Source: Streptomyces sp. SPB074 (GTDB lineage Bacteria; Actinomycetota; Actinomycetes; Streptomycetales; Streptomycetaceae). Taken from it: a stretch of DNA of 64,000 bases. The notes below the pieces were generated by a model. It did no database searches. It saw nothing but the letters and a program-made list of their open reading frames with translations, and was not told the origin of the DNA. This document shows, in pieces, positions 24,319 through 49,712 of this stretch (the stretch's first letter is position 1; every line of letters starts with the position of its first letter). A program made the position numbers and the translations under genes. The DNA lies in NCBI RefSeq assembly GCF_000154905.1, contig NZ_GG770540.1, positions 93,411 to 157,410 of the forward strand. The letters run 5' to 3'.

Positions 24319-24516
24319 CCCACGGCCCTCCCGAACTGGCGGAACGCACACCAGGCGGAGCCGATTCGGGACGAAGTGGGCGGGCGGCGAACCGATTTAC
24401 TCGATCTGCCGCACAGTGACCACTTTCTGCCCTACCGTCACCATCGACCCGCCCTCCATCCCTCCCGTCCGGACCATCGTCCGGCTGATACGCAACGACT
24501 GTCCACAGGAGCCGCG

Positions 24517-26031: not shown

Positions 26032-26057
26032 AGCATCCGCCCTCAGCACCCTGCCTG

Positions 26058-26126
26058 TCGCCGCCCGGCCGCCCGGCCGCCCGGCCGCCCGGCCGCCCGG
26101 CCGCCCGGCCGCCCGGCCGTCCGACC
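26058..26126. repeat. Tandem 8-bp repeat between cse1 and cse2
   Basis: The octamer CGGCCGCC is repeated about eight times without interruption and ends 38 bp before the cse2 start. Such a run can slip during replication and would form a stable RNA structure in the cascade mRNA. Confidence 0.8.
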
Positions 26127-26163
26127 GGCGCTTCCGCGACCGACCCGTGCCACCAGGAGAACC

Positions 26164-27042: not shown

Positions 27043-27134
27043 CCGGGCCCCCACGACGGCCGGCGCCCCGACCGCCTCGCCGTCCCCGCGCCCTTCCGGC
27101 ACCACGACCACCGCAACGAACGGAGCCCGCCACC

Positions 27135-28316: not shown

Positions 28317-29212
28317 CCAGCCCGAACACCCTCACCTCGGGTGACGCCGCCCAGGACGCCGCCACGCCGGACGCCCCCGCGCAACCCACCGGACCCACGC
28401 TCCTGATGCACCTGGCCGGCCCGTTGCAGTCCTGGGGCGAACGCTCCCGCTTCCCCAGCCAACGCGACACCGGCGTCACCCCGACCCGCTCCGCGCTCAT
28501 CGGCCTGTTCGCCGCCGCCCTCGGACGCGGTCGCGACGACGCCCTGACCGGCCCGAACCCCGACACCGACGGCGACCTGCGCACCCTGTCCTTCCTGGTG
28601 CGCACCGACCGGCCCGGCACCCGGCTGCGCGACTTCCACACCGTCGGCGGCGGCCTGCCCCGCACGAAGACCGTCGTCACCGCCGAAGGCACCTACCGGA
28701 AAGGTGCGAACGCCCTCGTCACCACCCGCCACTACCTGCAGGACGCCGCGTTCACCGTCGCCGTCACCGCTACGGACACCGCGCTGCTGGAACGCTGCGA
28801 CGAGGCGCTGCGCCGGCCCCGCTGGCCGCTGTACCTCGGCCGCCGCTCGTGCCCGCCCACCGGCCGGGTGCGGCTCGGCCTGCTGCCCGGACCGCCGATG
28901 CCGTACCTGCTGGATCTGCCGCTCGCCCGCCCCGTCCCCGGCCGGCACGTCGAGACCGTTCCGGTCGGCTTCGACGCCGACCGCCCGCTACAGCCGATGC
29001 TCCCACAAGACAAGCTGACTACCAGTGAGTTCAGCACCAGCGAGGTCGCCGACGAGCCGCAGTCCTACGCCACCTTGGACCGCCGCTACCTCGACCGCAC
29101 CCGCCACCACGTGGTCGTCCACCTGCCCGCCGCCCGCTGCGGCGGGCAGGGCGCGACCTACCTCGGCAACGCCGCCCGCTACCTCACGACGACACGAGGC
29201 GCCGCATCATGA
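28313..29212 (+). CDS. cas5e: Cas5e/CasD, Cascade subunit
   Basis: This 299-aa RAMP protein binds the 5' handle of the crRNA. The core begins at LLMHLAGPLQSWGERSRF (residue about 30) after a Thr/Ala/Pro-rich N-terminal extension that E. coli CasD lacks. RDTGVTPTRSALIGLFAAAL and LRDFHTVGGGLPRTK are family motifs. It is translationally coupled on both sides by 4-bp overlaps. Confidence 0.93.
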   Translation: MTSPNTLTSGDAAQDAATPDAPAQPTGPTLLMHLAGPLQSWGERSRFPSQRDTGVTPTRSALIGLFAAALGRGRDDALTGPNPDTDGDLRTLSFLVRTDRPGTRLRDFHTVGGGLPRTKTVVTAEGTYRKGANALVTTRHYLQDAAFTVAVTATDTALLERCDEALRRPRWPLYLGRRSCPPTGRVRLGLLPGPPMPYLLDLPLARPVPGRHVETVPVGFDADRPLQPMLPQDKLTTSEFSTSEVADEPQSYATLDRRYLDRTRHHVVVHLPAARCGGQGATYLGNAARYLTTTRGAAS

Positions 29213-29862
29213 TCGAGAACCGGGTCTGGCTCACCCAGATCGTCCCGCACACCGGCCTCAGCGCCGAGGCCACCCGCGACCTGCGCAGCGCCGTCAACCT
29301 GCACAAGCGCGTCATGAGCCTCTTCCCCGACGACCTGGGCGAGCGGGCCCGGCAGCAGACCGGGGCACTCTTCCGCTTCGAGGAGGACGCCACCCGCGGC
29401 AGCCGCCTGCTCGTGCAGAGCGTCGTCACACCCGACCCGACCCGGCTGCCGGCGCGCTACGGCGCCGTCCGCAGCACCGAGATCACCCCGCTCCTGCAGC
29501 GCCTGCGACCCGGCGTCCGCGTCAACTACCGGCTGACCGGCAACGCCACCCGCACCCTCAGCCGTGACACCACCGCCGGCCGCCCCAACCAGGTCATCCC
29601 ACTGCACGGCGCCGACGCCGAGGAGTGGTGGCTGCGCCGCGCCGCAAGCGCCGGCCTGGACATCCACAAGATCCACACCACCGAGCTCGACGACGCCGCC
29701 GGCAACCGCCACGACAAGCAGCGCATCCGCCACGCCCGCACCCGCTTCGACGGCACCGCCACCGTCACCGACCCGGACGCCCTGCGCACCTGCGTCACGA
29801 CGGGCATCGGCCGCGGCAAGTCCTACGGCTGCGGCCTCCTCAGCCTGGCACCCGCCCGGTGA
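29209..29862 (+). CDS. cas6e: Cas6e/CasE, crRNA endoribonuclease
   Basis: This 217-aa protein cuts the pre-crRNA at the base of each repeat hairpin and stays bound. The probable catalytic His is in NLHKRVMSLFP near residue 32. The Gly-rich RNA-binding loop GIGRGKSYGCGLLSL closes the protein. It overlaps cas5e and cas1 by 4 bp each. Confidence 0.95.
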   Translation: MIENRVWLTQIVPHTGLSAEATRDLRSAVNLHKRVMSLFPDDLGERARQQTGALFRFEEDATRGSRLLVQSVVTPDPTRLPARYGAVRSTEITPLLQRLRPGVRVNYRLTGNATRTLSRDTTAGRPNQVIPLHGADAEEWWLRRAASAGLDIHKIHTTELDDAAGNRHDKQRIRHARTRFDGTATVTDPDALRTCVTTGIGRGKSYGCGLLSLAPAR

Positions 29863-30878
29863 CCCCGCCACCGGCCGGGCCCGCCAAGCGCCGCACCGCC
29901 CTCGCGGCCGGCACCGCCCGCAAACGCATCAGCAAGCCCAACGCCGCGATGCTCCCGCGGATCGGCGACTCGCTGTCCTTCCTGTTCCTCGACCAGGCAC
30001 GCGTCGAACAGGACGCCACCGGCGTCAAAGCCGTCCTGGCCAGCGACGACGGCCCGACGGTACTCGCCGTCCCGACGGCCGCGCTCTCCTGCCTGCTCCT
30101 CGGCCCCGGCACCTCGATCACCGCGCCGGCACTGCGCACCCTCGCCCGGCACGGCACCTCCGTCGTCATCACCGGCTCGGCAGGCGTGCGCTGCTACGCC
30201 GGACTCGTCCCGGAGGGCATGACGTCGAAGTGGCTCCAGGCCCAGGCGACGGCCTGGGCCGACCCCACCGCGCGCACCGCGATCGCCGAGCGGATGTACC
30301 GGATGCGCTTCGGCCCGACCGCGCCCCAGGACGCCACCATCGCCACGCTGCGCGGCCTGGAGGGCAGCCGCATGAAGGCCATGTACAAGGCCCTCGCCCA
30401 GCAGCACCGCCTCCCGCCGTTCCGCCGCAGTTACGACCCGGAGGACTGGGACGAGCAGACGTCCGTCAACAAGGCGCTCTCGGCCGCCAACTCCTGCCTC
30501 TACGGCATCGTCCACGCGGCGATGATGGCCCTCGGCATCAGCCCCGGACTCGGCTTCGTCCACACCGGGACGACGCTGTCGTTCGTCTACGACATCGCCG
30601 ACCTCTACAAGAGCGAACTGACCATCCCGCTCGCCTTCAGCCTGCACGACAGCACCGATCCCGAGGGCGAAGCCCGGCGATCCTTCCGGGAGGGACTGCG
30701 GCTCTTCAAGCTGCTGCCACGCATCGTCGCCGACCTCCAAGACCTCCTCGACCCCCAGGACGGCCACAGCCGCCGCGACGACGCCGAAGAGGCCCTGGAG
30801 GAGATCACCGACCTGTGGGACCCAGAGCTCGGCGCCTTGCCCGGCGGCCGCAATTACAGCTCAAAGGGGAAGAACTGA
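29859..30878 (+). CDS. cas1e: Cas1e integrase
   Basis: This 339-aa adaptation protein forms the Cas1-Cas2 complex that inserts new spacers. The metal ligands are visible: Glu in RGLEGSRMKAMYK (about residue 168), His in LGFVHTGTTLSFVYDI and Asp in DIADLYKSE. GTG at 29859 forms a GTGA overlap with cas6e. About 30 residues precede the usual family start. It is intact, so adaptation may be functional. Confidence 0.95.
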   Translation: MTPPPAGPAKRRTALAAGTARKRISKPNAAMLPRIGDSLSFLFLDQARVEQDATGVKAVLASDDGPTVLAVPTAALSCLLLGPGTSITAPALRTLARHGTSVVITGSAGVRCYAGLVPEGMTSKWLQAQATAWADPTARTAIAERMYRMRFGPTAPQDATIATLRGLEGSRMKAMYKALAQQHRLPPFRRSYDPEDWDEQTSVNKALSAANSCLYGIVHAAMMALGISPGLGFVHTGTTLSFVYDIADLYKSELTIPLAFSLHDSTDPEGEARRSFREGLRLFKLLPRIVADLQDLLDPQDGHSRRDDAEEALEEITDLWDPELGALPGGRNYSSKGKN

Positions 30879-30879
30879 C

Positions 30880-31188
30880 GTGTCATCGATGATCGTCATC
30901 GCGACGACCGCCGTCCCCGAACACGTCCGCGGCGCCCTCACCCGCTGGATGATCGAACCGATGCCGGGCTTCTACATCGGCACACTCTCAGCGCGGGTCC
31001 GCGATGCCCTGTGGGACGTCGTCGCCGCCTCGGTGGCCGACGGCGCAGCGGTCATGGGATACCCAGCGGACACCGAACAGGGCTACGCAGTCCGAACCGC
31101 GGGCGAACGGCGGCGGAAGCCGCTAGATCTGGAGGGCCTGGTGTTGGTGGCGTTCCACCCGAGCGAACATAACGAATCGGCAACCTAG
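30880..31188 (+). CDS. cas2e: Cas2e, adaptation partner of Cas1
   Basis: The 102-aa protein has the I-E type Cas2 fold: MIVIATTAVPEHVRGALTRW, then EPMPGFYIGTLSARVRDALW and a C-terminal GLVLVAFHP strand. GTG 30880 follows AAGGGGA. The last codons and stop overlap the conserved leader block of array 2, so the array promoter lies inside or just after this gene. Confidence 0.95.
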   Translation: MSSMIVIATTAVPEHVRGALTRWMIEPMPGFYIGTLSARVRDALWDVVAASVADGAAVMGYPADTEQGYAVRTAGERRRKPLDLEGLVLVAFHPSEHNESAT

Positions 31189-31212
31189 CGGAAACAGTAC
31201 AGGTCAGGAAGT
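31189..31212 (+). promoter_or_regulatory. Leader end of CRISPR array 2
   Basis: GAATCGGCAAC (over the cas2 stop) and CAGGTCAGGAAGT directly before the first repeat match the leader of array 1 on the other side of the cas genes. The gap is only 24 bp, so part of the leader lies in cas2. Confidence 0.65.
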
Positions 31213-33344
31213 GTCCGCCCCGCGCTGCGGGGGTGAGCCAAGCCCAGAATGTCGCTCGCCTCGCTGAGCGGGCAGTCCGCCCCGCGCTGCGGGGGTGAGC
31301 CGGGGCACACCGCCGCCCTGGTCGAGCGGACAGAGTCCGCCCCGCGCTGCGGGGGTGAGCCGAGTTCAGTGATGTCCGCGATGTACTTGCGCGCGTCCGC
31401 CCCGCGCTGCGGGGGTGAGCCGGCTTCGTGCGGTTGCTGGTGATCCACGCCCACGTCCGCCCCGCGCTGCGGGGGTGAGCCGTTCTACTTCCTGGAGACC
31501 ATCGCCGCCGAGTCGTCCGCCCCGCGCTGCGGGGGTGAGCCGGCGGAGTGCTGGACGCTCTGCGCGGCCCCGGCGTCCGCCCCGCGCTGCGGGGGTGAGC
31601 CGGCGGCGCTGGGGGTGCGGGCGGGCGGGCTCGGGTCCGCCCCGCGCTGCGGGGGTGAGCCGAGCACGGGGCCGTGGACGGCGAGCGGCACAGTGTCCGC
31701 CCCGCGCTGCGGGGGTGAGCCGCTCGCGGTTTGGAACTGGTCCCTCGACCAGGGGTCCGCCCCGCGCTGCGGGGGTGAGCCCCCTTCATGTGGGCCTGCA
31801 CCACGTGCGTCCTCGTCCGCCCCGCGCTGCGGGGGTGAGCCGCTGCTCGGGCAGGCCAAGCTGGAGAACGCCGAGTCCGCCCCGCGCTGCGGGGGTGAGC
31901 CGGTCATCACCGTGACCTCGGTGGGCGAGGCCGGGTCCGCCCCGCGCTGCGGGGGTGAGCCGGGGAGGCGCGCGGCCTCGCTCTCCGGGAGGACGTCCGC
32001 CCCGCGCTGCGGGGGTGAGCCGCGCCTGATCCGGCGCTCCGCCTTCTTCACGAGGTCCGCCCCGCGCTGCGGGGGTGAGCCGGCGATCAACTACCTCGGC
32101 CGGGAGCTGTACCTGTCCGCCCCGCGCTGCGGGGGTGAGCCGGGGTGGCACCGGGACGGCCGGGTTTGCAGGCCGTCCGCCCCGCGCTGCGGGGGTGAGC
32201 CGGTCCTGGCCGAGGACGCGGGTGAGGGCCTGCTGTCCGCCCCGCGCTGCGGGGGTGAGCCGATCGTGCAGCGGAACCGCGAGGAGCTGGAGCGGTCCGC
32301 CCCGCGCTGCGGGGGTGAGCCGCCGGGCGCAGTCCGTCGCAACGCACACCCGTAGTCCGCCCCGCGCTGCGGGGGTGAGCCGACCCGGTCGGCGCCCGCG
32401 TCGGTCCACTCCGGGTCCGCCCCGCGCTGCGGGGGTGAGCCGGATCGCGTCTTGAGCACCACATTCAGCCCCTCGTCCGCCCCGCGCTGCGGGGGTGAGC
32501 CGCACGCCGTCGCGACAGAGCAGTGGCGCTGGCAGTCCGCCCCGCGCTGCGGGGGTGAGCCGCTGCGCAGCACGAGGTATCCGCGTACGTCCGCGTCCGC
32601 CCCGCGCTGCGGGGGTGAGCCGAGGCGTTTCGTGTGAAGCAGACCGCCGCCGGAGTCCGCCCCGCGCTGCGGGGGTGAGCCGGACATCCTCGCGCTCGGC
32701 AAGGCGATCAATTAGTCCGCCCCGCGCTGCGGGGGTGAGCCGACCTCGACCCCGACGACGAGGGCCCCATCGACGTCCGCCCCGCGCTGCGGGGGTGAGC
32801 CGGCGATCAACTACCTCGGCCGGGAGCTGTACCTGTCCGCCCCGCGCTGCGGGGGTGAGCCGCTCCACCTGACAGGCTCAGCGACGAACCAGGCGTCCGC
32901 CCCGCGCTGCGGGGGTGAGCCGCCTGTGCCTGCACGTCGCCCTCAGCGCCGCCCGTCCGCCCCGCGCTGCGGGGGTGAGCCGGCGTCGAGGGCGGCCTGG
33001 TCGGTGGGGGTGGTGTCCGCCCCGCGCTGCGGGGGTGAGCCGGCGTCCACTGGGTCGTGTCCAGCGGCCTCTACACGGTCCGCCCCGCGCTGCGGGGGTG
33101 AGCCGACCGACGCGCTCGGCGCCCTGCCCCTCGGCTCGTCCGCCCCGCGCTGCGGGGGTGAGCCGCCTCCGCACCGTCCCGTACGCCATGTCGTACGGTC
33201 CGCCCCGCGCTGCGGGGGTGAGCCGGCCAACTTCGAGCGCGGCCTTCCACCGCCGTTGTCCGCCCCGCGCTGCGGGGGTGAGCCGACGCGGTCGGCCTCG
33301 ATGCTCTCGGCCAGGAGGTCCGCCCCGCGCTGCGGGGGTGAGCC
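31213..33344 (+). CRISPR. Type I-E CRISPR array 2 (36 repeats)
   Basis: Thirty-six repeats, GTCCGCCCCGCGCTGCGGGG-GTGAGCCG, alternate with 35 spacers, nearly all 32 bp (period 60). The first spacer is 34 bp. The repeat shares its hairpin and the 8-nt GTGAGCCG handle with array 1 but has GTCCGCCCC in place of GTTTTCCCC at its 5' end. The leader is at the left, so it is read rightward, away from cas2. One spacer occurs twice (32083-32114 and 32803-32834). The last repeat has a changed final base. Confidence 0.97.
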
Positions 33345-33396
33345 TTCTTCCAGTTCTGGGGTGGCTTGTTGATCTTGTGGCGCTGACGGTGCCAAG

Positions 33397-33624
33397 GTGC
33401 CGCCCGAACCCGACGCCCTCGACGCCTTCCGCCGCCAGCTAGCCGACCGCATCCGCGACCACCGCCTGTGGCGCAACCTCTCCCAAGAGCAGGTCGCCGA
33501 ACGCACCGGCCTGTCGGCCCACACCGTGCAGCGCATCGAGAGCGGAACCCGGGAGACGAAGGTCAGCTACCTCTTCCGCCTCACCCACGCTCTCGACTGC
33601 GAGGTGCGCGACTTGCTGCCGTGA
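33397..33624 (+). CDS. Small XRE-family regulator
   Basis: This 75-aa protein consists almost entirely of an HTH_XRE domain: RNLSQEQVAERTGLSAHTVQ, then RIESGTRETKVSYLFRLTHA and the typical DLLP ending. It starts with GTG 33397 right after the end of array 2. Its target is unknown; the array or the divergent small genes nearby are possible. A terminator follows. Confidence 0.85.
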   Translation: MPPEPDALDAFRRQLADRIRDHRLWRNLSQEQVAERTGLSAHTVQRIESGTRETKVSYLFRLTHALDCEVRDLLP

Positions 33625-38112: not shown

Positions 38113-38922
38113 GTCCGCCCCGCGCTGCGGGGGTGAGCCGGCCGCACGCACCCGAAAAGCTCGCGGAAAGTAGTCCGCCCCGCGCTGCGGGGGTGAGCCG
38201 ACGTACGAGGGTGTTACTTCATGCGGCCATAAGTCCGCCCCGCGCTGCGGGGGTGAGCCGGTGGTGAAGGCCGCCGGTACCGCGATCAGCAAGTCCGCCC
38301 CGCGCTGCGGGGGTGAGCCGCCGGACGAGGGCATGCCGACGCCAGCCTCTGAGTCCGCCCCGCGCTGCGGGGGTGAGCCGCTCGCGTCCCCGTACGGCAG
38401 CAAGTTCCCGGCGTCCGCCCCGCGCTGCGGGGGTGAGCCGTCTTCGCGCTCCTCAGCCGTGGTCTGAGGCCCACCCGCCCCGCGCTGCGGGGGTGCGCCG
38501 GCGAAGCAGTTCGCCGAGACCGCGCACGCCATACCCGCCCCGCGCTGCGGGGGTGAGCCGTGGACCAAGGCATTTGAGGGTGGGGCAGAGGGACCCGCCC
38601 CGCGCTGCGGGGGTGAGCCGCGGGCCGAGCAGGCCGAGCAGAGCCTCCTGCGACCCGCCCCGCGCTGCGGGGGTGAGCCGACACCCGGCGCGCGGAGAGG
38701 GCCGCCGCGCAGACCCGCAACCCGCGCTGCGGGGGTGAGCCGACGCGGGGCGGCGAGGGCGAGCGGGTGACGGTACCCGCCCCGCGCTGCGGGGGTGAGC
38801 CGTACCAGGAGGCCGACAGCGGGCAGCCGGCCGGATCCGCCCCGCGCTGCGGGGGTGAGCCGCTCTCCCTCTCCCTCCCGTCGGTTCACCGGCTATCCGC
38901 CCCGCGCTGCGGGGAACCGCCC
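38113..38922 (+). CRISPR. Type I-E CRISPR array 3 (14 repeats, no leader)
   Basis: Fourteen repeats with the same hairpin and GTGAGCCG handle as array 2 recur every 60 bp. The first six start GTCCGCC, the next six ACCCGCC and the last two ATCCGCC. Repeat 7 has GTGCGCC, repeat 11 contains a 2-bp insertion and the last is truncated after GCGGGG. No leader-like block precedes it; an HTH gene does. It looks like the old end of an array cut off from its leader. Confidence 0.93.
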
Positions 38923-38952
38923 TTGGCGGCGAGCGTCATGGGCAGCCTCTGG

Positions 38953-39390
38953 CCCGCTCCGCACGCGCGGCGGTGAGCCATCACGGCCCCGGCTCCGCCC
39001 GCCCCCTTCCTCGTCCGCTCCGCACGTGCGGAATCCTCCCCGGTGCTCGCGGCGCGGCTCGTCGATGTCCCCTTCGACCTCGCCCACGCGAGGATCCTCC
39101 GCCGAACAGGGGTGATCTGCTCGATGAGCCCGTCGACCCAGCGCCCGCGGGGATACTCCGGTCCTCGCGCGGCTGGAGGCGGACGGTGTGCTGTCGACTC
39201 CGCGGAGGATCTTCCGGCCTTCATGGAGGAGCAGACCTACGGCTTCCGCTCCGCACGCGCGGAGGTGAGTCGGTTGCCAGGCGTCACCCATGTCGAGGCT
39301 CCGTGTCCGCTCCGCACGCGCGGAGGTGAGCCGCGGAACGCGCTCGCTCCCTACGCACGGAGGTCGTCCGCTCCGGGCCGGTCCCGTGCG
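38953..39390 (+). repeat. Decayed CRISPR repeat units
   Basis: About eight degenerate units continue array 3 at the same 58-62 bp spacing: clear ones at 38953, 39013, 39244 and 39304 (GTCCGCTCCGCACGCGCGGA-GGTGAGCC), weak ones near 39073, 39133, 39193 and 39365. The clear copies share a variant stem, CTCCGC/GCGGAG, with compensating changes. The last units overlap the 3' end of the large leftward gene. Confidence 0.6.
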
Positions 39391-41954
39391 GCACTTCCCG
39401 GGACGCAGGCGAAGGCCTCGCTCAGACGCTCCTCGTCGGATGCGGCGGGGGTGGGGAGGTGCTGTTCGCGCAGGTGGGTCAGGCGCTGGGTGAGGAGGTG
39501 CTCGGCCGTGCGCGTGCGGGCGGTTTCGGCGGCGCGGGCGGCCGCGGCGAGGGATTGCGGGCCGGTGGGGTCGTGGCGGTGGTGGCTGCGGGACTGCTCG
39601 GCGGCGTGGGCGTAGCGGCCCTCGGTCTGCGCGTGGCGGGTGCGGGCGAGCTGCGCGAGTGCGGTGGCCCGGTAGTCGGCGGCGGCCTCCCGGGCGGCCC
39701 GCAGGCCGCGCACCGAGGCGACGTCGGGGAAGGACGGGTCGTCGGCGACGTTGACGCCGTCGGCGTCGAGCGCGGCGCGCAGCTCGCCCACGCTCACCGC
39801 GACCTGGGCCAGGACGTCGTCGCGGACCTGGTCCATGACGGCGGCGACTTCGCCTGTGTGGCGGGGGTTGACGGTCCAGGAGACCTGGCACATCCCGGCC
39901 TCCACGATCAGGGCGTTCAGCTCGCGGATGCGGCCGCACCCCTGGCACAGCCCGGCCGCATCCTCGCGGCCGCAGTCCGCACACGGCAGGGCCTGCCGGA
40001 CGCGCTCGCGGGCAGCGGCCTCCTCCTGCTCCCGGGCCGCTCGCTCCCGTGCGGCGGCACGCATCCGGTCGCTGCGCGCGCGCTGGGCGGCATGGCGCCG
40101 CTCGCGGGCCTCGGCCTCGCGCTCGGTGTGCGCGCGCAGCCGCTCCTCGAGGACACGCCGGCGCTCGGCGGCGGGGAGGTCGGGCTGCTCCTGGTCGAGC
40201 TCGGCACCGAGGCGGGCCCGGTGCGCGCGGCGGAGGTGGATCACGTTCCCGCAGCTCTCACAGGCCTGGCCGGTGTCCAGGCTGATCCCGTCGTCGCACC
40301 GCGTGTCCGAGCAGGCCGGGCGCTGGACGAGGGCGCGGTGCAGCAGCCAGGGGTAGGGCTGGCGGATCATCACCAGGCCCCGGCTCTGCGCGATCCGGGC
40401 CTCCAGCCGCTCGGCCAGCGCCCGCGGAGCGTCCTGCGGCAGCGGCACGAGCCCGGCCAGCCGTACGAGCTCGGCGCGGGCGGCGGTCTCGATCTGCTGC
40501 TGCTGCCAGCCGGAGAGCCGGTCCCACAGCCACCCCACCGGCCGCAGCGCATCACCCAGCTCCGGGACCTGGACCAGGCGCCGACGAGGCAGCCGAGGCC
40601 CGGGAACCTTCCCGCTACCGGTGCGCGTGTGGCCCGCGCCAGCGGTGGCGGGCTGCTGGTGCTGCGAGGGGATCGGGAAGGTGTTCGGCTGTTCCCCGCG
40701 CAGCGGGCCTTCCCCCGCTCCCGACGACCCGCAGAGGCCCTCGGCCTCCTCGCCGAGCTCCGGCTCCTCGCCCACGCACACGCGCTCCGGAAACGGCGAG
40801 GACCCCAGACCGGCTACGCCGGAAAAACCGCCCACCTCCTCAACCTCACCCACGACAGGAACCCCAGAAGCGTGGTTAGCGTGAAGGGTTGCCGCATCGT
40901 CGGGGTCTGCAATCGCGGGGTTATCGGCCTCAGGCACCTCACTGACCTGCGGCTTTTCCCCGGCCTCGGACTCCTCACTTGGGGTTGCCGCAACGTCGGG
41001 GCCTGAAAACCCAGCCACCGCCCCCTCCGAAGGGGCCCCCATCATGCCGGGAGTCCCGCGCCCGGCCGTGATCTGGCCGCCGCGCGCGGCCGCCACCGCC
41101 GGCACCACCAGACGTCCCCGCTGCCCCAGCCCCGAGCCCGTCCCCGCGCGCGGCCGTACCACCACGCCCCACTCCTCCAGGCGCTCCAGCACCCGCTCCG
41201 CCGCTGCCGCCGTGCAGCCCAGCAGCCGCGCGAGCGTCACCGCCGCACGGCCCCGCTGGCCCTTCACGACGCCGCCGCACTGACGGACCCGGCCGTCTTC
41301 CCGCGCCTCCAGCACCAGCAGCAGCAGCGCGAGCCGGTCCGTCGGCGCGCCCTTCCCTGTCCGAGCAGCCAGCAGCCCGGACGGGATCACCTCCCCGCTC
41401 TTCAGCGTCCAGCCCGGCGCCATCAGCGCCTCCATCACGAACAACATCATCGCCAGCTCGGAGCGGCGCAGGTTCAGCGGATGACCGACCACCCCCCGGG
41501 CCTCCAGCAGCGGCACCACCCGGCACCGCAACCCCACGTCCTCCTTGAACTCCCCCTGATCCGACTCCACCTCGACCACGCCCGACGCGCGCAGCCACGG
41601 GACAACCACCGAGGCCGTGTACGACCGGGACAAGCCCACCCACCGGGCCACCTGTGAGGTACGGATCTCCACCACACCCGACCCCCACGGCGTACGCGAC
41701 GCCAACACCACCACCGCCAGCTGCACCGCGTACGGAGCACCCTCCAGCCCCGGCGCATCCAGCAACGCACGCACCACACCCCGCAACCGAGCTTGCATGT
41801 CCGAACCCAGCGAGAGCGCCCCCGCCGCCCGCCCCCGCTCCGGCCCGCCCACAGCAGACCCAGCAGGAACAGACCGCAACCCACTCCGCGACGACGCGCC
41901 GGAAAACGAACGCGGGACCGGCACCCCAGCGGCCGACGCCGCCACGGCACTCAC
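39351..41954 (-). CDS. Large DNA-binding-like protein of unknown role
   Basis: This 867-aa protein has an N-terminal third with at least two winged-helix-like segments (VEIRTSQVARWVGLSRSYTA; AAVTLARLLGCTAAAAERVL), an acidic linker (about residues 300-430), and a helical region with ACESCGNVIHLRRAHRARLG. A very basic coiled coil and a second zinc finger (LPCADCGREDAAGLCQGCGR) follow. Two DNA-binding halves joined by a linker suggest a plasmid replication or chromosome-organising protein, but no known Rep motif is seen. GTG 41954 is used; an ATG at 41798 is an alternative. Its promoter region contains direct repeats. Confidence 0.75.
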   Translation of the reverse strand: MSAVAASAAGVPVPRSFSGASSRSGLRSVPAGSAVGGPERGRAAGALSLGSDMQARLRGVVRALLDAPGLEGAPYAVQLAVVVLASRTPWGSGVVEIRTSQVARWVGLSRSYTASVVVPWLRASGVVEVESDQGEFKEDVGLRCRVVPLLEARGVVGHPLNLRRSELAMMLFVMEALMAPGWTLKSGEVIPSGLLAARTGKGAPTDRLALLLLVLEAREDGRVRQCGGVVKGQRGRAAVTLARLLGCTAAAAERVLERLEEWGVVVRPRAGTGSGLGQRGRLVVPAVAAARGGQITAGRGTPGMMGAPSEGAVAGFSGPDVAATPSEESEAGEKPQVSEVPEADNPAIADPDDAATLHANHASGVPVVGEVEEVGGFSGVAGLGSSPFPERVCVGEEPELGEEAEGLCGSSGAGEGPLRGEQPNTFPIPSQHQQPATAGAGHTRTGSGKVPGPRLPRRRLVQVPELGDALRPVGWLWDRLSGWQQQQIETAARAELVRLAGLVPLPQDAPRALAERLEARIAQSRGLVMIRQPYPWLLHRALVQRPACSDTRCDDGISLDTGQACESCGNVIHLRRAHRARLGAELDQEQPDLPAAERRRVLEERLRAHTEREAEARERRHAAQRARSDRMRAAARERAAREQEEAAARERVRQALPCADCGREDAAGLCQGCGRIRELNALIVEAGMCQVSWTVNPRHTGEVAAVMDQVRDDVLAQVAVSVGELRAALDADGVNVADDPSFPDVASVRGLRAAREAAADYRATALAQLARTRHAQTEGRYAHAAEQSRSHHRHDPTGPQSLAAAARAAETARTRTAEHLLTQRLTHLREQHLPTPAASDEERLSEAFACVPGSAARDRPGADDLRA

Positions 41955-42175
41955 CGACCCACCCGCACGTACGAGACAGTGATCATCCTGGCAGCCTCAC
42001 GCGGGCTGCCTGTGGACAGAGACCGGGAGAGGCCGAGGACCCCACTGGTTCCCGACCCCCGAGCCACAACCTGCGGTCGTGTCCCGCGCGACGGGACACG
42101 ACACCGGAGACCGGTAGCAGCCCCCTCGCTCGTGACGGCACCCTGCGGACCCCGCCCACGCGAGAACATGAACGA

Positions 42176-42247
42176 ATGAAGGTACTTAAAAGCCTCACCC
42201 GACTGATGAAGGTACTTTTCGCGCGAAACGCCCACTTGGGGGCCTGA
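42176..42247 (+). repeat. 30-bp-spaced direct repeats ATGAAGGTACTT
   Basis: ATGAAGGTACTT occurs at 42176-42187 and 42206-42217, exactly 30 bp apart, in a locally AT-rich stretch. They also form a 23-codon frame (MKVLKSLTRLMKVLFARN...) with a repeated MKVL. They lie upstream of the large leftward gene and may be iterons of an origin, operators or a leader peptide. Confidence 0.45.
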
Positions 42248-42309
42248 GAGATGACAGGGGTCGGGAACGTACGGCACTATGAACTCCGTTCTCGGCTTGC
42301 GCCGGGTAC

Positions 42310-42526
42310 GTGAAAGGCCCCATCTCGATGGGGTGCGGTTCTGGGAGAACCTGAAGGTCGCCCGTCCGGACTGGCATCCGGTGGGCCTAAGCCCGGCCCT
42401 GGCAGGCCGAGCAGTAGCACGAAGGGCCGTTGACGGCCGATGGGTGGAACCATCGAACTCGCTCAGCGGCCGAGCGGTAGAGGCGCGAGTCCCCCCTGGC
42501 AGGGGGACGAGGAAACCTCCCGCTCA
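42310..42526 (+). ncRNA. Candidate orphan structured RNA
   Basis: At least ten short perfect hairpins follow one another: CCCCAT/ATGGGG (42318-42333), GGTTCT/AGAACC (42337-42351), CCGGA/TCCGG (42366-42381), GGGC/GCCC (42383-42394), GGCC/GGCC (42395-42408), GGCCG/CGGCC (42425-42438), CGATGG/CCATCG (42438-42455), GCTC/GAGC (42461-42475), GTCCCCC/GGGGGAC (42489-42508) and GAGG/CCTC (42509-42519). GAGCGG (42472) can pair with CCGCTC (42520-42525) to close the last domain. Three loops are the same hexamer CTGGCA. The layout recalls HEARO/omega RNAs of IscB or TnpB elements, but no such protein gene is near. The strand is assumed. Confidence 0.45.
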
Positions 42527-43072
42527 CAAGCCCTACGTCATCCGACCCCCCTCAGCGAGTGGGGTTTGCCCCGAGGCCCCGACAACGCGGACCTCGGGGA
42601 TGAGGCGTGTGGGCATGACGGCGAGAGCGGGGGCAGCCCCGCTCCGGGCGGTCACGCGTGTGCGGCGGTAGGAGGGACAGGGGTGACGTGCATCGGCGGT
42701 GTGATCCTCACGCCGGAACTGTCGCTCCGCCTGTCTGACCGGGATGAATTCCGGGTACCCTGCTTCATGTCGCTTCCTCTTCGCGGTTGCGGCCAGCCCG
42801 AGGGGTTCTTGCAAACCGCCTCCGGCACCGGCTCCGCGTCGATCCTGGGTTACCAGCCCAGGGGAGCGGAGCCGCTTACATTTCTGCGCACGCCCTCGAT
42901 CCGCAGAGATCATTGGCGCGAGGATCACCCTACCCCGGCGGCGGCGCTCCGGTGCCCCACCCGCCACTGCGCGTACAGGAACAGACGGCACATCACCGCA
43001 AATCTCTACGAACGGGAGCATCGCCAGCAAGGTGGGGTGGGTGGCGGTCATCGGCTCCACCCATCCCGAGGG

Positions 43073-43225: not shown

Positions 43226-43765
43226 ATGTGCCTTCGTGGCACGGTCTGGTCCGGTAGACCGTCGTACGTGACGCGAGTGCAACTGACCGACCCGGAGTGG
43301 GATTTCATTGAGCCGTACCTGCCGATCGGCGAGTACGGCCCGTACCCCGAGCGGCTGCGGCAGCAGTTCGAGGGCGTGATCTGGCGGTTCAAGACGGGCG
43401 GCCAGTGGCGGGAGATGCCGGCAGAGTTCGGCGCCTGGTCGACCGTCCACAACCGCTTCCGGCAGTGGCGTGACGCCGGGGTCTTCGAGGCCCTGCTGGA
43501 GGGCCTGATCGCGGAAGCCGCGAAGCGCGGTGAGGTGGACCTGTCCCTGGTCAGCATCGACTCCACCACCGCCCGTGCCCACCACGACGCGGCCGGCATG
43601 CACCTGGACGAGGAGGTCCTCACCGCTCTGGAGAAGGCTGCCGCCGAGGCGGAGAAGGCCAGGTCGAAGGGGGCGGCTGCGACGAACAAACCGGGCAGGA
43701 GGCCGGGAGCGATCCCGGGCGGGAAGAACGACGGCGCGTCCGGCGCCGACGCAAACTTCGGCTGA
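43226..43765 (+). CDS. IS5-type transposase, first frame (copy 1)
   Basis: The 179-aa first frame has the N-terminal helical domain (QLTDPEWDFIEPYLP, YPERLRQQFEGVIWRFKTGG) and the first catalytic Asp in LVSIDSTTARAHHDA. It stops in a GC-rich overlap where the second frame takes over, so the full transposase needs programmed frameshifting. It differs from copy 2 at several residues near the end (for example GAIPGGKND against KAIPRGKND). Confidence 0.88.
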   Translation: MCLRGTVWSGRPSYVTRVQLTDPEWDFIEPYLPIGEYGPYPERLRQQFEGVIWRFKTGGQWREMPAEFGAWSTVHNRFRQWRDAGVFEALLEGLIAEAAKRGEVDLSLVSIDSTTARAHHDAAGMHLDEEVLTALEKAAAEAEKARSKGAAATNKPGRRPGAIPGGKNDGASGADANFG

Positions 43766-44271
43766 AGGCCGCCCTGCTCGGACGCTCCAGGGGCGGGCAG
43801 ACCAGCAAGATCTATGTCGCCGGCGACCGGAGGTGCCGCCCGCTGGCGTTCATCCTGACCGAGGGGCAGGCCGCCGACAGTCCGCAGTTCATCCCAGTGC
43901 TGGGGAAGGTACGGGTCCGCGGGCTCGTCGGCCGTCCCCGCACCCGGCCGGACGCGGTCGCCGCAGACAAGGCGTACTCGTCCCGCGGCAACCGTGCCCA
44001 CCTGCGCAAACGCCGTATCAAAGCGGTCATCCCGGAGAAGAAGGACCAGGCCGCCAACCGGAACAAGAAGGGCTCCCACGGCGGCCGGCCCGTCAGCCAC
44101 AACGCAGACCTCTACAAGGAGCGGAACACCGTCGAGCGTCTGATCAACAAGCTCAAGGCATGGCGAGGCATCGCCACGCGCTACGACAAGACCCCCGACA
44201 GCTACCTCGCCGGACTCTACCTACGCGCCTCGATGATCTGGATCAAGGACCTCACACGAGCAGCCTCTTGA
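43735..44271 (+). CDS. IS5-type transposase, second frame (copy 1)
   Basis: This frame carries the rest of the DDE domain: RSRGGQTSKIYVAGDRRCRP, Asp in DAVAADKAYSSRGNRA, and Glu in LYKERNTVERLINKLKAWRG. It has no good start of its own; 43735 is an approximate frameshift boundary. The last codon lies 19 bp before the IS end. Confidence 0.8.
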   Translation, partial: RVRRRRKLRLKAALLGRSRGGQTSKIYVAGDRRCRPLAFILTEGQAADSPQFIPVLGKVRVRGLVGRPRTRPDAVAADKAYSSRGNRAHLRKRRIKAVIPEKKDQAANRNKKGSHGGRPVSHNADLYKERNTVERLINKLKAWRGIATRYDKTPDSYLAGLYLRASMIWIKDLTRAAS

Positions 44272-44294: not shown

Positions 44295-45009
44295 CCGGGC
44301 CCGAATAGAGAAGGTCGCGGCAGCTTACCCCGGCGCGATACGTATCGAGAGCGTCGACAACGAACTGAAGTTCAAGGCGACCGACCTGCGCGGCGCCAAC
44401 GGGATCACCTCCAGTGGCTGGCTGTGCAGCGCCGGGTTCAACACCAAGAACTCATCGGGGACGATCTACACGCTAACTGCTGGCCACTGCGTACCGGGGA
44501 CGGGCAACACCTGGTACATGGACTGGAACGGTGCCAAAATCGGCACCCAGACCGCGTACAACTACGGTACGGGCACCGGCGGATACTGCGATGCGACGCG
44601 CGGCTGCGACTGGGCCACGATCAAGGCGGACGGCTCTGACATCAATCCGCTCGGGACCGTGCGGTACTGGGGTGGCATCTATAAGCAGGTCGACAAATCC
44701 CGTTACCCGGCAGAGGGCGAGCACATCGACCGGATCGGCGTCAACAGCCAGGACTTGACGGGTAACGTCACCAAAACAAGCGTGACCGTGAACATCGAGG
44801 GCAAGACCCTGTACGGCATGATGGAGACGAACAACTGCGCGCTGGGCGGCGACAGCGGGGGGCCAGCGCTCAACGGAACTACGGCCCTGGGTCTCCTCTC
44901 CGGCGGCACTTCCGAGACCACATGCACCTCTGACACCAGTGGCACCTACCGGAACTATTTCACGAAGGTACAGTCCGTGCTGAACGAGCGCGGCCTCCAC
45001 GTGTACTGA
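44295..45009 (+). pseudogene. Trypsin-like serine protease, 5' end cut by IS
   Basis: The S1 protease catalytic triad is complete: His in YTLTAGHCVPGTG, Asp in GCDWATIKADGSD and Ser in ALGGDSGGPALNG, with four Cys placed for disulfides. Removing the IS and one CTAG restores an in-frame upstream part (from ATG 43110, ending VGRT-SRARIEK), but even that part lacks a clear signal peptide. The gene encoded a secreted chymotrypsin-like protease of the Streptomyces type and is now disconnected from its start. Confidence 0.8.
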
Positions 45010-45111: not shown

Positions 45112-45603
45112 ATGCGCATCAGGGCATTCCGCTCGGTCAGTCTGCTCGCTGGGGTTGCCTTGTCCGTGGCTGGCTTGGGGGCCGTATCCGGTTGCGGCAG
45201 CCACAAGGAAGCTGCTGGCGGGGACACGGACGGACTCGCAGACCGCGCCCAGAAGGTCGCTGCGGCGTGGGACGGCTCGGCTGCGGCTGCCGCGTGGAGG
45301 GCTGGCTACTACCCGATGGGGGAAACGGTCCAGCTGCCACGCGGCGGCCTGCGCAGCCAGTCCGACAAGCAGGCTTACGAAAGTCGGAACTTCATCTTGA
45401 GGGGGGAGCTGCCCAGCACCGGGCCGAAGGATGGGCGGGTGACGTGGACTAAGGACGACTCACTCGCCCGGCCGCTGGTGGATGCGGACGAGTCCTACAG
45501 GGCCTTGGCAGATACTCACATCGGCGGGCAGCCGCACCTCACGGTGACCGGGGCGAAACTGGGCAAGATGACCTTGCCCACTAGGGAGCGTATTCGGTTG
45601 TGA
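45112..45603 (+). pseudogene. Lipoprotein gene, 5' part (split by IS copy 2)
   Basis: ATG 45112 follows GGGAGGACAC. The signal sequence SLLAGVALSVAGLGAVSGC ends in a lipobox Cys. The mature part starts Gly/Asp-rich, and HLTVTGAKLGKMTLPT is the last native segment before the IS at 45585. Joining across the IS (one CTAG removed) restores an open frame to 47105, giving about 300 residues. Confidence 0.8.
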
Positions 45604-46140
45604 TCAAGAGGCTGCTCGTGTGAGGTCCTTGATCCAGATCATGGAGGCCCGGAGGTGGAGTCCGGCGAGGTAGCTCCCCGGGGTCTTGTCGTAGCGGGTG
45701 GCGATGCCTCGCCATGCCTTCATCCTGTTGATCGTCCGCTCGACGGTGTTCCGTTCCTTGTAGAGCTCGGTGTCGTGACTGACGGGCCTGCCGCCTCCAC
45801 TGCCTTTCTTCTTCCGGTTGGCGGCCTGGTCCTTCTTCTCCGGGATGACCGCTTTGATACGGCGTTTGCGCAGGTGGGCACGGTTGCCGCGAGACGAGTA
45901 AGCCTTGTCTGCGGCGACTGCGTCCGGCCGGGTGCGGGGGCGGCCGACGGGCCCGCGTATCCGCACCTTCTTCAGGACGGGGATGAACTGTGGGCTGTCC
46001 GCTGCCTGGCCCGCGGTCAGGATGAACGCCAGCGGGCGGCACTTGCGGTCGGCGGCGAGGTGGATCTTGCTGGTCTGCCCGCCCCTGGAGCGTCCGAGGA
46101 GGGCGGCCTTCAGCCGGAGTTTGCGCCGACGCCGGACGCG
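45604..46140 (-). CDS. IS5-type transposase, second frame (copy 2)
   Basis: It contains DAVAADKAYSSRGNRAHLRK and ELYKERNTVERTINRMKAWR, the second Asp and the Glu region of the DDE domain. The upstream limit (46140) is the approximate frameshift boundary, by analogy with copy 1. Confidence 0.8.
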   Translation of the reverse strand, partial: RVRRRRKLRLKAALLGRSRGGQTSKIHLAADRKCRPLAFILTAGQAADSPQFIPVLKKVRIRGPVGRPRTRPDAVAADKAYSSRGNRAHLRKRRIKAVIPEKKDQAANRKKKGSGGGRPVSHDTELYKERNTVERTINRMKAWRGIATRYDKTPGSYLAGLHLRASMIWIKDLTRAAS

Positions 46141-46649
46141 TCGTCGTTCTTCCCGCGCGGGATCGCTTTCGGTCTCCTGCCCGGTTTGTTCGTCGCAGCC
46201 GCCCCCTTTGACCTGGCCTTCTCCTCCTCGGCGGCGGCTTTCTCCAGGGCGGTGACGACGTCCTCGTCGAGGTGCATCCCGGCCGCGTCGTGGTGGGCAC
46301 GGGCGGTGGTGGAGTCGATGCTGACCAGGGACAGGTCCACCTCACCGCGCTTCGCGGCTTCCGCGATCAGGCCCTCCAGCAGGGCCTCGAAGACCCCGGC
46401 GTCACGCCACTGCCGGAAGCGGTTGTGGACGGTCGACCAGGCGCCGAACTCTGCCGGTATCTCCCGCCACTGGCCGCCCGTCTTGAACCGCCAGATCACG
46501 CCCTCGAACTGCTGCCGCAGCCGCTCGGGGTACGGGCCGTACTCGCCGATCGGCAGGTACGGCTCAATGAAATCCCACTCCGGGTCGGTCAGTTGCACTC
46601 GCGTCACGTACGACGGTCTACCGGACCAGACCGTGCCACGAAGGCACAT
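46110..46649 (-). CDS. IS5-type transposase, first frame (copy 2)
   Basis: This 179-aa frame is nearly identical to that of copy 1 (same SIDSTTARAHHDAAGMHLDE segment). Differences are confined mostly to the last 40 residues, so the copies have diverged somewhat or arrived separately. Confidence 0.88.
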   Translation of the reverse strand: MCLRGTVWSGRPSYVTRVQLTDPEWDFIEPYLPIGEYGPYPERLRQQFEGVIWRFKTGGQWREIPAEFGAWSTVHNRFRQWRDAGVFEALLEGLIAEAAKRGEVDLSLVSIDSTTARAHHDAAGMHLDEDVVTALEKAAAEEEKARSKGAAATNKPGRRPKAIPRGKNDDASGVGANSG

Positions 46650-47409: not shown

Positions 47410-48582
47410 ATGGCCTCTCCATACCCTGACGGAGACCGGGAAAAGGTGGCGTCCAAGCTGCCAGCCCCGCTCCAGCAAGCACTGAAAATCCGGGCCGCGG
47501 AACTCGCTCTCGACATCCAGGAGGCGGTCGAGGCCGGCATCACTGCCTGGCGCGCACTATCAAGCCCCCACGACCCCGACACGGTCGACACGACCGGGGC
47601 CCGCTCCTTCTCAACATGGCTTCCCCCAGGGATGTACGACGACTTCAAGGCGACCTGCGCCGAGCGGAACGTCTCCTACACCCAGGGCCTGGCCCAGTCC
47701 GTGAACGTCTGGCTCACCGTCAACCCCTCCCCCCGCCAGACCACGACGATCGCCGTAGAACCGGAGCGGAAGATCGTCGGAAACCAGAAAGGCGGCGTCG
47801 GCAAGACCGCCGTCTCCGCCGGCATCGGACAGGCCTACGCCGAGGCCGGCAAGCGCGTCCTCATCGTCGACTTCGACCCCCAGGGCCACCTCAGCGAACA
47901 ACTCGGCGTCCCCCAGATCGAGCCCGAGCACGACAGCCTCGTCTCCCACATGTGCGGAGACAGCAAGGGTGAGCTGCGCGACCTGGTCGTGACCATAGAG
48001 GATCCCCGCTACGGCAAGCGCCTCAACGTCCTGCCCGCCTGCTTCGACGGCTTCCTCCTCGACGCGAAAATCGCCGTCGTCGCCACCCAGAAGCGCGGCT
48101 TCCAGAAAGAAGCCGCCCTCGAACTGGCCCTGCGCCCCCTGGAAACCGACTACGACGTCGTCATCATCGACTGCCCGCCCAGCCTCGGCATCGCCATGGA
48201 CGCTGCCCTCTACTACGGCCGCCGCCGCCGCGACACACCCCCCGGCACGAGCGGCGTCATCATCCCGGTCCTCGCCGAGGACTCCTCCGCCACCGCCTAC
48301 GGCATGCTCGCCCAGCAGATCGAGGACCTCTGCGAGGACCTCTCCCAAGAGATCGACTACCTCGGCCTCGTCGTCAACCTCTACGACTCCCGCCGCGGCT
48401 ACGTCGCCACCTCCTCCCTCGAAAGCTGGAAGGCCATCGGAGACCCCAAAGTCCTCGCCGTCATCGGCGACCTCAAAGAGCAACGCGAAGCCGTACGCAA
48501 ACGCATGCCGCTCCTCTCCTACGCCCCCCACAGCGACCAGGCAGAAGCCATGCGGCAAGTAGCGCGAGGAGCGACCCGATGA
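47410..48582 (+). CDS. parA: ParA partition ATPase with N-terminal DNA-binding region
   Basis: This 390-aa ParA has an N-terminal 120-residue extension with helices that may bind the operator (APLQQALKIRAAELALDIQE; TWLPPGMYDDFKATC, ribbon-helix-helix-like). The ATPase follows: deviant Walker A GNQKGGVGKTAVSAG, LIVDFDPQGHLSEQ and VVIIDCPPSLGIAM. ATG 47410 follows AAGGTGA. The stop overlaps parB by 4 bp. It forms a classic ParAB operon, distinct from the small ParA system at 2609-3948. Confidence 0.93.
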   Translation: MASPYPDGDREKVASKLPAPLQQALKIRAAELALDIQEAVEAGITAWRALSSPHDPDTVDTTGARSFSTWLPPGMYDDFKATCAERNVSYTQGLAQSVNVWLTVNPSPRQTTTIAVEPERKIVGNQKGGVGKTAVSAGIGQAYAEAGKRVLIVDFDPQGHLSEQLGVPQIEPEHDSLVSHMCGDSKGELRDLVVTIEDPRYGKRLNVLPACFDGFLLDAKIAVVATQKRGFQKEAALELALRPLETDYDVVIIDCPPSLGIAMDAALYYGRRRRDTPPGTSGVIIPVLAEDSSATAYGMLAQQIEDLCEDLSQEIDYLGLVVNLYDSRRGYVATSSLESWKAIGDPKVLAVIGDLKEQREAVRKRMPLLSYAPHSDQAEAMRQVARGATR

Positions 48583-49712
48583 CCAGCAAGGCCGACACCC
48601 TCGGCAGCGCACCCGCCTTCGGCACCGCGCGGAGCGCCCGCAGTTCCCGCCGCGCCGCCATCGACCGGACCATCAACGGCGACGATGCCGCCAGCACGCA
48701 TGTCACCGAGCTCCCCGTCACCCTCGTCAGCGACAACCCCGACAACCCGCGCAACCACCTGCGCAACCTTGAGGAGATCGTCGAGACCGTCCGCGAGGTC
48801 GGGATCATCCTCCCCATCGTCATCGCCACCACCGACGCCTACCTCAAGGACCGCGCCGACCGGGTCACCGATCTCGACGCGGGCAGCCAGTACGTCGTCG
48901 TTGACGGCCACCGCCGCCTCGAAGCCGCCCGCCGCGTCGGGCTCGCCACCATCCCCGTCCGCGTCGACAACGCCCGCGTCACCACCGACGAGGCCCTCCT
49001 CGAATCGGCGTTCATCGCCAACTACCACCGCGACGACATGACCGACCTCGAGGAGGCGAACGCGCTCAAACAGCTCGTCGACTACTACGGCTCCCAGACG
49101 AAGGCAGCCAAACGACTCGGCCTGCCACAGAGCACGATCTCCAGCAAGCTCTCCCTCCTCAAGCTCTCTCCCGAACTCCAGAAGGATCTCGCCACCGGCG
49201 CACGCAAGAGCGAGCACGTCCGCAACCTTGGCAAGCTTTCCCCCACAGAGCAGAAAAGGAAAGCCGACGAGCGCGCCGCCGCTTCACCCGAAGTCGCACA
49301 GCCGGGCCAACTATCACGCCGTGATAATCCCGAGCCCTTTTCCACACCCGGGGGCCAGCCGCAAGTTCCGGCACCGGCTGAGCAAGGTCAGCTATCACGG
49401 CGTGATAATCCCAAGCCTCGCTCATCGGCAGCCCCACCCCAGGTAGCGCCACCCCTCGAGGAAGAGCGAACGGTGGCAGCGCCTCGGCCGAGTGCGGCGC
49501 TGCCACGCCAGCACGGCGAGACGCTCATGAACGCCGCCTTCGAGGAGCTCACCGCCGATCAGCGCAGCGCCTTCATCCTGCACTACTTCCAGCGCAGCAC
49601 CGGAGTCGACGCGGTCATCGCGGACATGCGCGGCGACCTTGATGTGCCCGCGCGTGAATCGCTCGCACGCATCCTGCAACAAGTCGCCGCAGGCCTGCTA
49701 CGCGATGCGTGA
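48579..49712 (+). CDS. parB: ParB centromere-binding protein
   Basis: This 377-aa ParB/Spo0J-type protein has the ParB nuclease-like CTPase domain in NPDNPRNHLRNLEEIVETV, VVVDGHRRLEAARRVGLA and ESAFIANYHRDDMTDLEEA. The HTH is in GSQTKAAKRLGLPQSTISSK. A Pro-rich linker contains a duplicated GQLSRRDNP segment whose codons are themselves parS-like palindromes. A C-terminal dimerisation helix ends the protein. It spreads from parS and stimulates ParA. Confidence 0.93.
   Translation: MTSKADTLGSAPAFGTARSARSSRRAAIDRTINGDDAASTHVTELPVTLVSDNPDNPRNHLRNLEEIVETVREVGIILPIVIATTDAYLKDRADRVTDLDAGSQYVVVDGHRRLEAARRVGLATIPVRVDNARVTTDEALLESAFIANYHRDDMTDLEEANALKQLVDYYGSQTKAAKRLGLPQSTISSKLSLLKLSPELQKDLATGARKSEHVRNLGKLSPTEQKRKADERAAASPEVAQPGQLSRRDNPEPFSTPGGQPQVPAPAEQGQLSRRDNPKPRSSAAPPQVAPPLEEERTVAAPRPSAALPRQHGETLMNAAFEELTADQRSAFILHYFQRSTGVDAVIADMRGDLDVPARESLARILQQVAAGLLRDA
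49312..49326. promoter_or_regulatory. parS-like site inside parB, copy 1
   Basis: TATCACG-C-CGTGATA within the parB frame encodes part of LSRRDN. It matches the core of the 31-bp palindrome upstream of parA exactly. Confidence 0.65.
49393..49407. promoter_or_regulatory. parS-like site inside parB, copy 2
   Basis: TATCACG-G-CGTGATA lies 81 bp (27 codons) after copy 1 and encodes the second LSRRDN. Only the central base differs from the other sites. Confidence 0.65.

Follow-up and report, generated by a model that had tools for sequence, protein, structure and literature searches.

Organization of the Putative Replication Locus

The window, meaning the whole stretch of 64,000 nucleotides analyzed here, carries a replication-protein gene (rep) on its minus strand, which stands back to back with a predicted folded RNA on the plus strand; partition genes follow further along. 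The features are listed below. Helix numbers refer to two alignments of homologues: A2, an ordinary MAFFT alignment (17 sequences, 71 pairs), and A4, a model-fitted alignment (41 rows, 65 pairs), which leans to structure and includes one opposite-strand row (L087).

39351–41954, minus strand: divergent gene for a replication protein of 867 aa, which BLAST relates to the RNA-adjacent protein of locus L016 (E = 2e-39)
42176–42217, strand not given: direct repeat ATGAAGGTACTT, two copies
42251–42280, plus strand: promoter-like pair, with a -35-like ATGACA (42251–42256), an 18-nt spacer and a -10-like CACTAT (42275–42280)
42285–42575, plus strand: predicted non-coding RNA, ~290 nt, its start inferred from the -10 element and its end from the 3' hairpin
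42316–42334, plus strand: hairpin H1, GGCCCCAUC/GAUGGGGU, the weakest helix among homologues
42337–42351, plus strand: hairpin H2, GGUUC...GAACC
42360–42386, plus strand: hairpin H3, loop CUGGCA at 42371–42376; helix 3 of A2, helices 3–4 of A4
42391–42412, plus strand: hairpin H4, loop CUGGCA at 42399–42404
42424–42471, plus strand: domain H5, GGGCCG...CGGCC around the inner hairpin CGAUGG/CCAUCG; helices 6–8 of A2 and A4
42472–42525, plus strand: domain H6, GAGCGG.GAGG...CCUCCCGCUC around an inner hairpin with loop CUGGCA at 42496–42501; helices 9–10 of A2 and A4
42533–42540, plus strand: conserved linker CUACGUCA, most columns invariant or nearly so
42544–42568, plus strand: 3' hairpin, GACCCC...GGGGUU, which resembles a terminator but has no U run; helices 11–12 of A2 and A4
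47410–49712, plus strand: partition genes parA and parB (Pfam AAA_31, ParB_N, HTH_ParB)

The preliminary description had confined the RNA to 42310–42526. With the conserved structure and the promoter-like pair, the limits of the predicted feature are widened to about 42251–42575. The covariance model R1, of whose 17 sequences the window is one, matches 42301–42592 on the plus strand with 199.8 bits.

The Rep of the window has no Pfam, NCBIfam or PHROG match, and its label as a replication protein therefore rests on the context of its relatives. Its first 317 aa find a match in 32 of 199 Streptomyces genomes, its own included. No DciA homologue lies beside it. The place after rep where many relatives have dciA is occupied by a CRISPR array (38115–39333), with 12 copies of a direct repeat of consensus CCGCCCCGCGCTGCGGGGGTGAGCCG, mostly at 60-nt spacing, followed by a second, variant repeat. 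The stretches 21427–30892 and 31052–33536 hold open frames whose translations, judged by eye, suggest a type I-E Cas operon with a Cas3-like helicase, Cascade subunits and Cas1, and after it more CRISPR-like repeats.

Downstream of the RNA, 75 bases at 42625–42700 are similar to the beginning of a gene found after the RNA region in several plasmid-phages, and are likely what is left of such a gene. Two near-identical sets of frames lie in inverted orientation at 43226–44271 and 45581–46649, one with a DUF4096 (IS4/5-family) match, and a trypsin-like frame (44518–45009) sits between them. Mobile elements had been noted near the RNA, and a frame with an IS4/5-family transposase domain does start ~0.65 kb away; its link to the RNA looks incidental.

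Association of the RNA with rep

A Rep homologue adjoins the RNA on the opposite strand at 36 of 37 loci, the exception being L074, where none is detectable; one of the 37, L089, matches the RNA by blastn only and not with R1. A DciA homologue is present at 27 of the 37; the name rests on a Pfam match, and DciA is the helicase operator according to PMC5109545. The RNA is not the orphan that had been proposed: its constant partner is the divergent replication gene. The converse association is weaker, R1 matching 13 of 47 rep loci from 199 genomes at E ≤ 0.01. A strict promoter pattern was found at 19 distinct rep loci among 52 entries scanned, always opposite to rep.

Pairwise comparison divides the Rep proteins into at least two groups with no similarity detected between them (the window and L016 versus the relatives of L017 and L025), yet the RNA is shared; the Rep type of plasmid pZL12 differs from that of the window. 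Two Rep types give weak PHROG matches to "replication initiation O-like". A low-confidence model of one Rep (mean pLDDT 57.7) contains a winged helix; for its N-terminal portion, the structural matches are to Zur/Fur/PerR, initiator and RctB chains (Z 6.6–8.6). For this predicted structure, the matches reflect the common winged-helix fold and no more, and the protein may belong to a family outside those listed.

The distance from the RNA start back to the annotated rep start, on the side away from the RNA, ranges from 0 to ~800 nt. In L017 (3630–5009) and L025 (4679–6064), the annotated rep start codons fall inside the promoter-like stretch of the RNA; the true starts of these two genes may be further in. 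Averaged over 36 loci, the G+C content reaches its minimum close around the RNA start, with 60% and 59% in the two 60-base windows that span -60 to +60 and 64–72% elsewhere; locus by locus, the window of lowest G+C lies at the RNA start or at most 150 bases upstream of it in only 7 of 36. No common iteron was found upstream of the RNA: direct 11-mers vary by locus, and many loci have none. In the window, the ATGAAGGTACTT pair sits in the 60 bases of lowest G+C within 900 bases of the RNA start and is a possible initiator site. Judged from sequence comparison, the position, conservation and independence of the RNA make it very probably a component of the replication locus.

Coding Capacity and Known RNA Families

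In 16 of 24 core homologues, no frame is open across the RNA on either strand; the other eight, the window included, have an open plus-strand frame in differing phases. A coding frame was rejected as an explanation on these counts, and the open frames of the window look like accidents, as first supposed; none is conserved among the 24. The RNA lengths of the homologues fall in all three classes modulo 3.

At the Rfam gathering threshold, the only match in the window is a tRNA (19031–19115), with none at the RNA, and 20 further loci yielded no family. Up to E = 10, two homologues gave one match each, far under threshold. The best sub-threshold match was to Scr6925; it lies on the minus strand, has E = 0.11 and scores 23 bits where the cut-off is 50, and was taken as chance. 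The RNA had been compared with OMEGA/HEARO-type RNAs. This likeness was not borne out: HEARO is absent at the gathering level from the window and the 20 loci, and up to E = 10 from 42150–42700 and the two homologues; the neighbors are rep, partition and other genes. Among the annotated neighbors in 24 records (rep, dciA, parAB, whiB and others), there is no IscB or TnpB nuclease.

No RNA is annotated at the locus in the pZL12 record; the plasmid gene tables contain no RNA genes and are hence uninformative on this point. A literature search, with most subscription journals outside its coverage, returned no recognized description of this RNA. We rate the RNA as a new family with a putative function of a known kind, that of a replicon-associated RNA, and an unusual architecture.

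Folding and Covariation

The three CTGGCA hexaloops first reported are present in H3, H4 and H6, as is the long-range pairing of GAGCGG (42472–42477) with CCGCTC (42520–42525). The count of ten hairpins in 42310–42526 was too high: the minimum-energy fold has six hairpin loops, and the others are enclosing helices. The folding energy of this stretch has a z-score of -2.55 on the plus strand (2 of 200 shuffles as good) and -3.81 on the complement (1 of 200); for the full RNA (42285–42575), it is -2.08 (4 of 200). By itself, folding energy is modest evidence, and what is decisive is the covariation in homologues together with the strand-specific G.U pairs.

Compensatory changes are present in the stems of the aligned homologues. 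In A2, 93.2% of cells pair, and both-side changes occur in 20 of the 71 pairs, amounting to 60 cells versus 16.6 in shuffled and 4–10 in slid alignments; further standard pair types show no excess over shuffles (48 vs. 46.7; 192/500). In A4, 53 of the 65 pairs have both-side changes, with 255 cells versus 67 shuffled and 20–68 slid. Because the structures come from the very sequences being tested, the slide control is biased in their favor.

Individual helices differ in their conservation. H1 pairs in 72.5% of cells in A2 and 69.9% in A4. H2 is invariant in all 17 sequences of A2, and divergent members show both-side changes in A4. Such changes affect six of eight H4 pairs in A2 (helix 4) and eight of eight in A4 (helix 5). 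The inner hairpin of H6 is missing in 9 of the 17 A2 sequences. As predicted from these comparisons, the feature is almost certainly a structured RNA. The first suggestion of a structured non-coding RNA, possibly of a new class, is supported by the covariation, the conserved promoter-like pair, the lack of a common frame and the lack of an Rfam family at threshold.

Strand, Promoter-like Pair and 3' End

In the model-fitted alignment, G.U cells outnumber A.C cells by 110 to 10 in the 24 core RNAs and by 147 to 28 in 40 RNAs (the 41 rows without the minus-strand row L087). This alignment follows a plus-strand model and leans to G.U; the count was therefore redone on the MAFFT alignment with the structures of both strands. 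The plus-strand structure gives 114 versus 8, and the structure predicted for the minus strand 59 versus 20, a smaller excess that persists; the 61 pairs common to both structures give 53 versus 7. DNA hairpins are expected to show about equal numbers of G.U and A.C. With the excess present in pairs predicted from either strand, the RNA is the plus strand. RNAalifold yields -142 kcal/mol for the plus strand versus -124 for the minus strand.

Directly upstream of the RNA, a promoter-like pair of the form [AC]TG[AG][CA], ~18–20 nt, CANNAT is found at 34 of 36 loci, compared with a background of one match per 48,780 nt. The stricter form CTG[AG]C, which excludes the ATGACA of the window, is found at 30 of the 36. 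At the other end, the annotation of 9 of 11 records, mostly plasmid-phages, has a minus-strand gene beyond the 3' hairpin that reaches into the end of the modelled stretch. In plasmid-phage records such genes often end within the 3' hairpin, which may therefore terminate transcription in both directions, and some of its conservation may stem from that.

Equal Loops

At least three hairpins share the same loop 5-mer, closing bases included, in 23 of 37 RNAs versus 2 of 1110 dinucleotide shuffles. Near-duplicates and loci L055, L057, L088 and L089 were left out of this count, in which the kinship of the RNAs is not removed; for the other 14 RNAs, the fold used shows at most two equal loops. The loop is equal within one RNA and differs between plasmids: CUGGCA in the window and others, UUGGCG in pZL12 and others, and CGCCAA in pSLE1, pCQ4 and others, with only two such hairpins in pCQ4. 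Further types are UGCGAA and GCUAA, the latter on two hairpins only.

The stems covary while the loop stays common, which suggests one partner for several hairpins. By inspection, loop type does not correspond to Rep type, and no partner can therefore be assigned. UUGGCG and CGCCAA are reverse complements, as recognition of the double strand would allow; this was rejected, being opposed by the UGCGAA and GCUAA types and by the G.U asymmetry.

Eight loci (L098, L099, L107, L108, L111, L113, L116 and L129), all of them further rep loci, share the promoter pattern, and the hairpin arrays that come after it are longer, with loops such as UGUGGU, UGGUUA, UGCCG, UGUCA and similar. Two of these eight share at least three equal loops, versus 0 of 80 shuffles; they are perhaps a second RNA type.

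Distribution

By blastn, nine plasmid records match at 60–80% identity; from the phage collection, the Streptomyces plasmid-phage ZL12, with two records, is the sole match. Queries with two divergent members retrieved 48 and 40 plasmid records, many of the matches being partial and many of those of the second query covering only the stretch downstream. All hosts in these two sets are Streptomyces, except for one Actinacidiphila and one other member of the Streptomycetaceae. Pattern scans added a contig of a Frankiales MAG and further viral contigs. When 62 loci, those of the pattern scans among them, were scored and matches at E 0.08–0.4 were dropped, three of three genome stretches and 9 of 34 viral stretches were homologues.

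Among 392 Streptomyces genomes, 14, the own one included, match by blastn, several short matches not being homologues. The covariance model finds the RNA in 7 of 199 Streptomyces genomes, again with the own one, and across the class in 2 of 246 (the own and one other Streptomyces); these genome-wide searches used stricter filters, so that the numbers are lower bounds. R1 matches 24 of 56 sources at E ≤ 0.01, with L054 (17.9 bits) not counted as a homologue, and 40 of 41 sources in a further set, L089 being the exception. Whole plasmid and phage records contain a single match in 23 of 24 cases and none in pSHJG1. In pZL12, a member of the model, the RNA at 13004–13264 scores 245.7 bits and adjoins rep with parAB. 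The Actinacidiphila plasmid NZ_CP109145.1 has, besides the RNA of L085, a second, better-scoring one at 221764–222043 (92.7 bits), which is its single match in the whole-record search; the plasmid possibly combines two replicons.

Proposed Function

The RNA would be transcribed from its own promoter, away from rep, and would stop at the terminator-like hairpin. It would then act in the control of replication initiation or copy number, a role that we consider somewhat probable. The identical loops would be repeated landing sites for one partner, be it the initiator protein, a host RNA-binding protein or another RNA; action through such repeated binding is plausible, if slightly short of probable. 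For the reading as a whole, we see the balance as even: Streptomyces plasmids and plasmid-phages would have, as part of their replication locus, an independent, highly folded RNA of ~290 nt whose equal loops serve to control initiation. This reading is built from features that comparison of homologues shows, namely how and from which strand the RNA folds, its promoter-like pair, its place back to back with rep (in many cases alongside dciA and parAB) and its equal loops.

If the loops are landing sites, their identity could set which plasmids share control. In its boldest and unlikely form, the proposal is one of "RNA iterons": the replicon would count itself through an RNA with equal loops, each bound by a copy of one partner, and the loop would change in concert within the RNA and define the compatibility group, as DNA iterons do.

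Other explanations place the RNA differently in the replication cycle. It could be an origin RNA, a transcript needed positively for the start of replication (as a primer, in an R-loop or through opening by transcription) with Rep and DciA assisting. The position and polarity are then those of the RNA of non-RepA cluster A prophages, as given in PMC7157519, and the mean G+C minimum right around the RNA start would fit; yet few individual loci have their minimum there (7 of 36), a primer has no obvious need of equal loops, R1 finds nothing in the phages RedRock, Gladiator and Alma, and these phages have no repA, whereas the present replicons have Rep. On balance, an origin RNA is rather unlikely. 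Antisense control, in which the rep mRNA begins beyond the RNA and carries an antisense leader with which the RNA pairs, starting at the loops, to repress rep, appears more doubtful. Rep lies upstream of the RNA on the opposite strand. In favor of this reading, 11 records, most of them from plasmid-phages, have the next gene on the minus strand and pointing at rep, so that read-through would be antisense to the RNA. YUNR is the motif of fast-pairing loops, and most loop types or their complements fit it, a weak argument because YUNR is common. Against these points, the distance of the rep starts from the RNA start leaves space in many loci for a promoter of rep itself, equal loops within one RNA are left unexplained, and the fold is maintained over widely diverged plasmids, whereas antisense controllers usually diversify.

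Recognition of extruded DNA hairpins, with no RNA made, is very unlikely. The hairpins do adjoin rep, and RepA of pWTY27 binds a long inverted repeat and may recognize a stem-loop (PMC3583192), but G.U exceeds A.C whichever strand predicts the structure, which is unexpected for DNA hairpins, and a conserved promoter-like pair is directed into the hairpin array. A riboswitch-like leader of a downstream plus-strand gene would suit six larger plasmids, where a gene of ~200 codons starts 290–340 nt past the RNA; with the next gene on the minus strand in 11 other records and a 3' hairpin that resembles an end, it is highly improbable. The chance that a HEARO/OMEGA-type guide RNA was left without its nuclease is close to nil: dense hairpins near insertion sequences recall one, but this reading is contradicted by the synteny, with rep as the constant neighbor and no IscB/TnpB annotated in the 24 records, and by the covariance search, which gave no HEARO match in the searches described above.

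Large plasmids and plasmid-phages are common in Streptomyces, and the start of replication and its counting have been described in few of them; a conserved RNA beside rep is a concrete element for deletion, swap and pull-down. RNA iterons, if true, would be a new principle of copy-number control across these replicons. Should compatibility depend on the loops, exchanging them with nothing else altered ought to shift incompatibility, which would provide a tool for stable multi-plasmid vectors.

Comparison with Known Systems

Sponge RNAs of the CsrB/RsmZ type have many hairpins with one repeated loop motif, GGA, and are bound multivalently. The RNA described here likewise carries the same loop on several hairpins (23 of 37 RNAs); unlike in the sponge RNAs, the loops are not GGA and vary by plasmid, and the RNA is plasmid-borne beside rep. 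ColE1 RNA I, CopA and pIP501 RNAIII are small structured copy-control RNAs that adjoin a replication gene, as this RNA does. It is larger than these, with more helices, equal loops and a fold kept over wide divergence, and its complementarity to a rep leader is putative. HEARO/OMEGA RNAs share the dense helices and the surrounding mobile elements and differ in the covariance match, the annotated nuclease and the synteny, the first two of which are lacking here. Within the family, the pZL12 group has the RNA beside rep with parAB like the window, which differs in its Rep type and in having no dciA.

The theta replicons SCP2, pFP1, pFP11 and pWTY27 of Streptomyces have a non-coding stretch beside rep that is bound by Rep, and that of pWTY27 is needed for replication in S. 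lividans (PMC3583192). These stretches are described there as iterons or Rep-binding DNA and not as RNA, and the comparison is one of description, not of homology.

Some cluster A mycobacteriophages (RedRock, Alma, Gladiator, LadyBird, Et2Brutus) have RNA-based prophage origins, which are similar in having a folded non-coding RNA upstream of, and divergent from, a maintenance operon: parAB there, and rep, often with dciA and parAB, here, where the predicted RNA has this position at 36 of 37 loci. By eye, a UGGCA loop is also shared. In the mycobacteriophage origin RNAs L078–L080, UGGCA is accompanied, again by eye, by a complementary UGCCA or GCCAG loop, with which it could form a kissing interaction inside the same RNA; no set of three equal loops was observed in these origins. 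The phage origins differ in being ~600 bp long, without repA and with replication demonstrated by experiment, according to PMC7157519, whereas a Rep is present here at 36 of 37 loci and the RNA is known from sequence. Homology was rejected, as R1 has no match at E ≤ 10 in the RedRock, Gladiator and Alma stretches; with the lack of rep in those phages, the relation is at best one of working alike. According to PMC7157519, a non-coding RNA is expressed in non-RepA cluster A prophages; it lies immediately before parA and is read in the opposite direction, and its region is required for stable lysogeny and suffices for replication. By analogy, this prophage RNA would be the nearest experimental precedent for the RNA beside rep.
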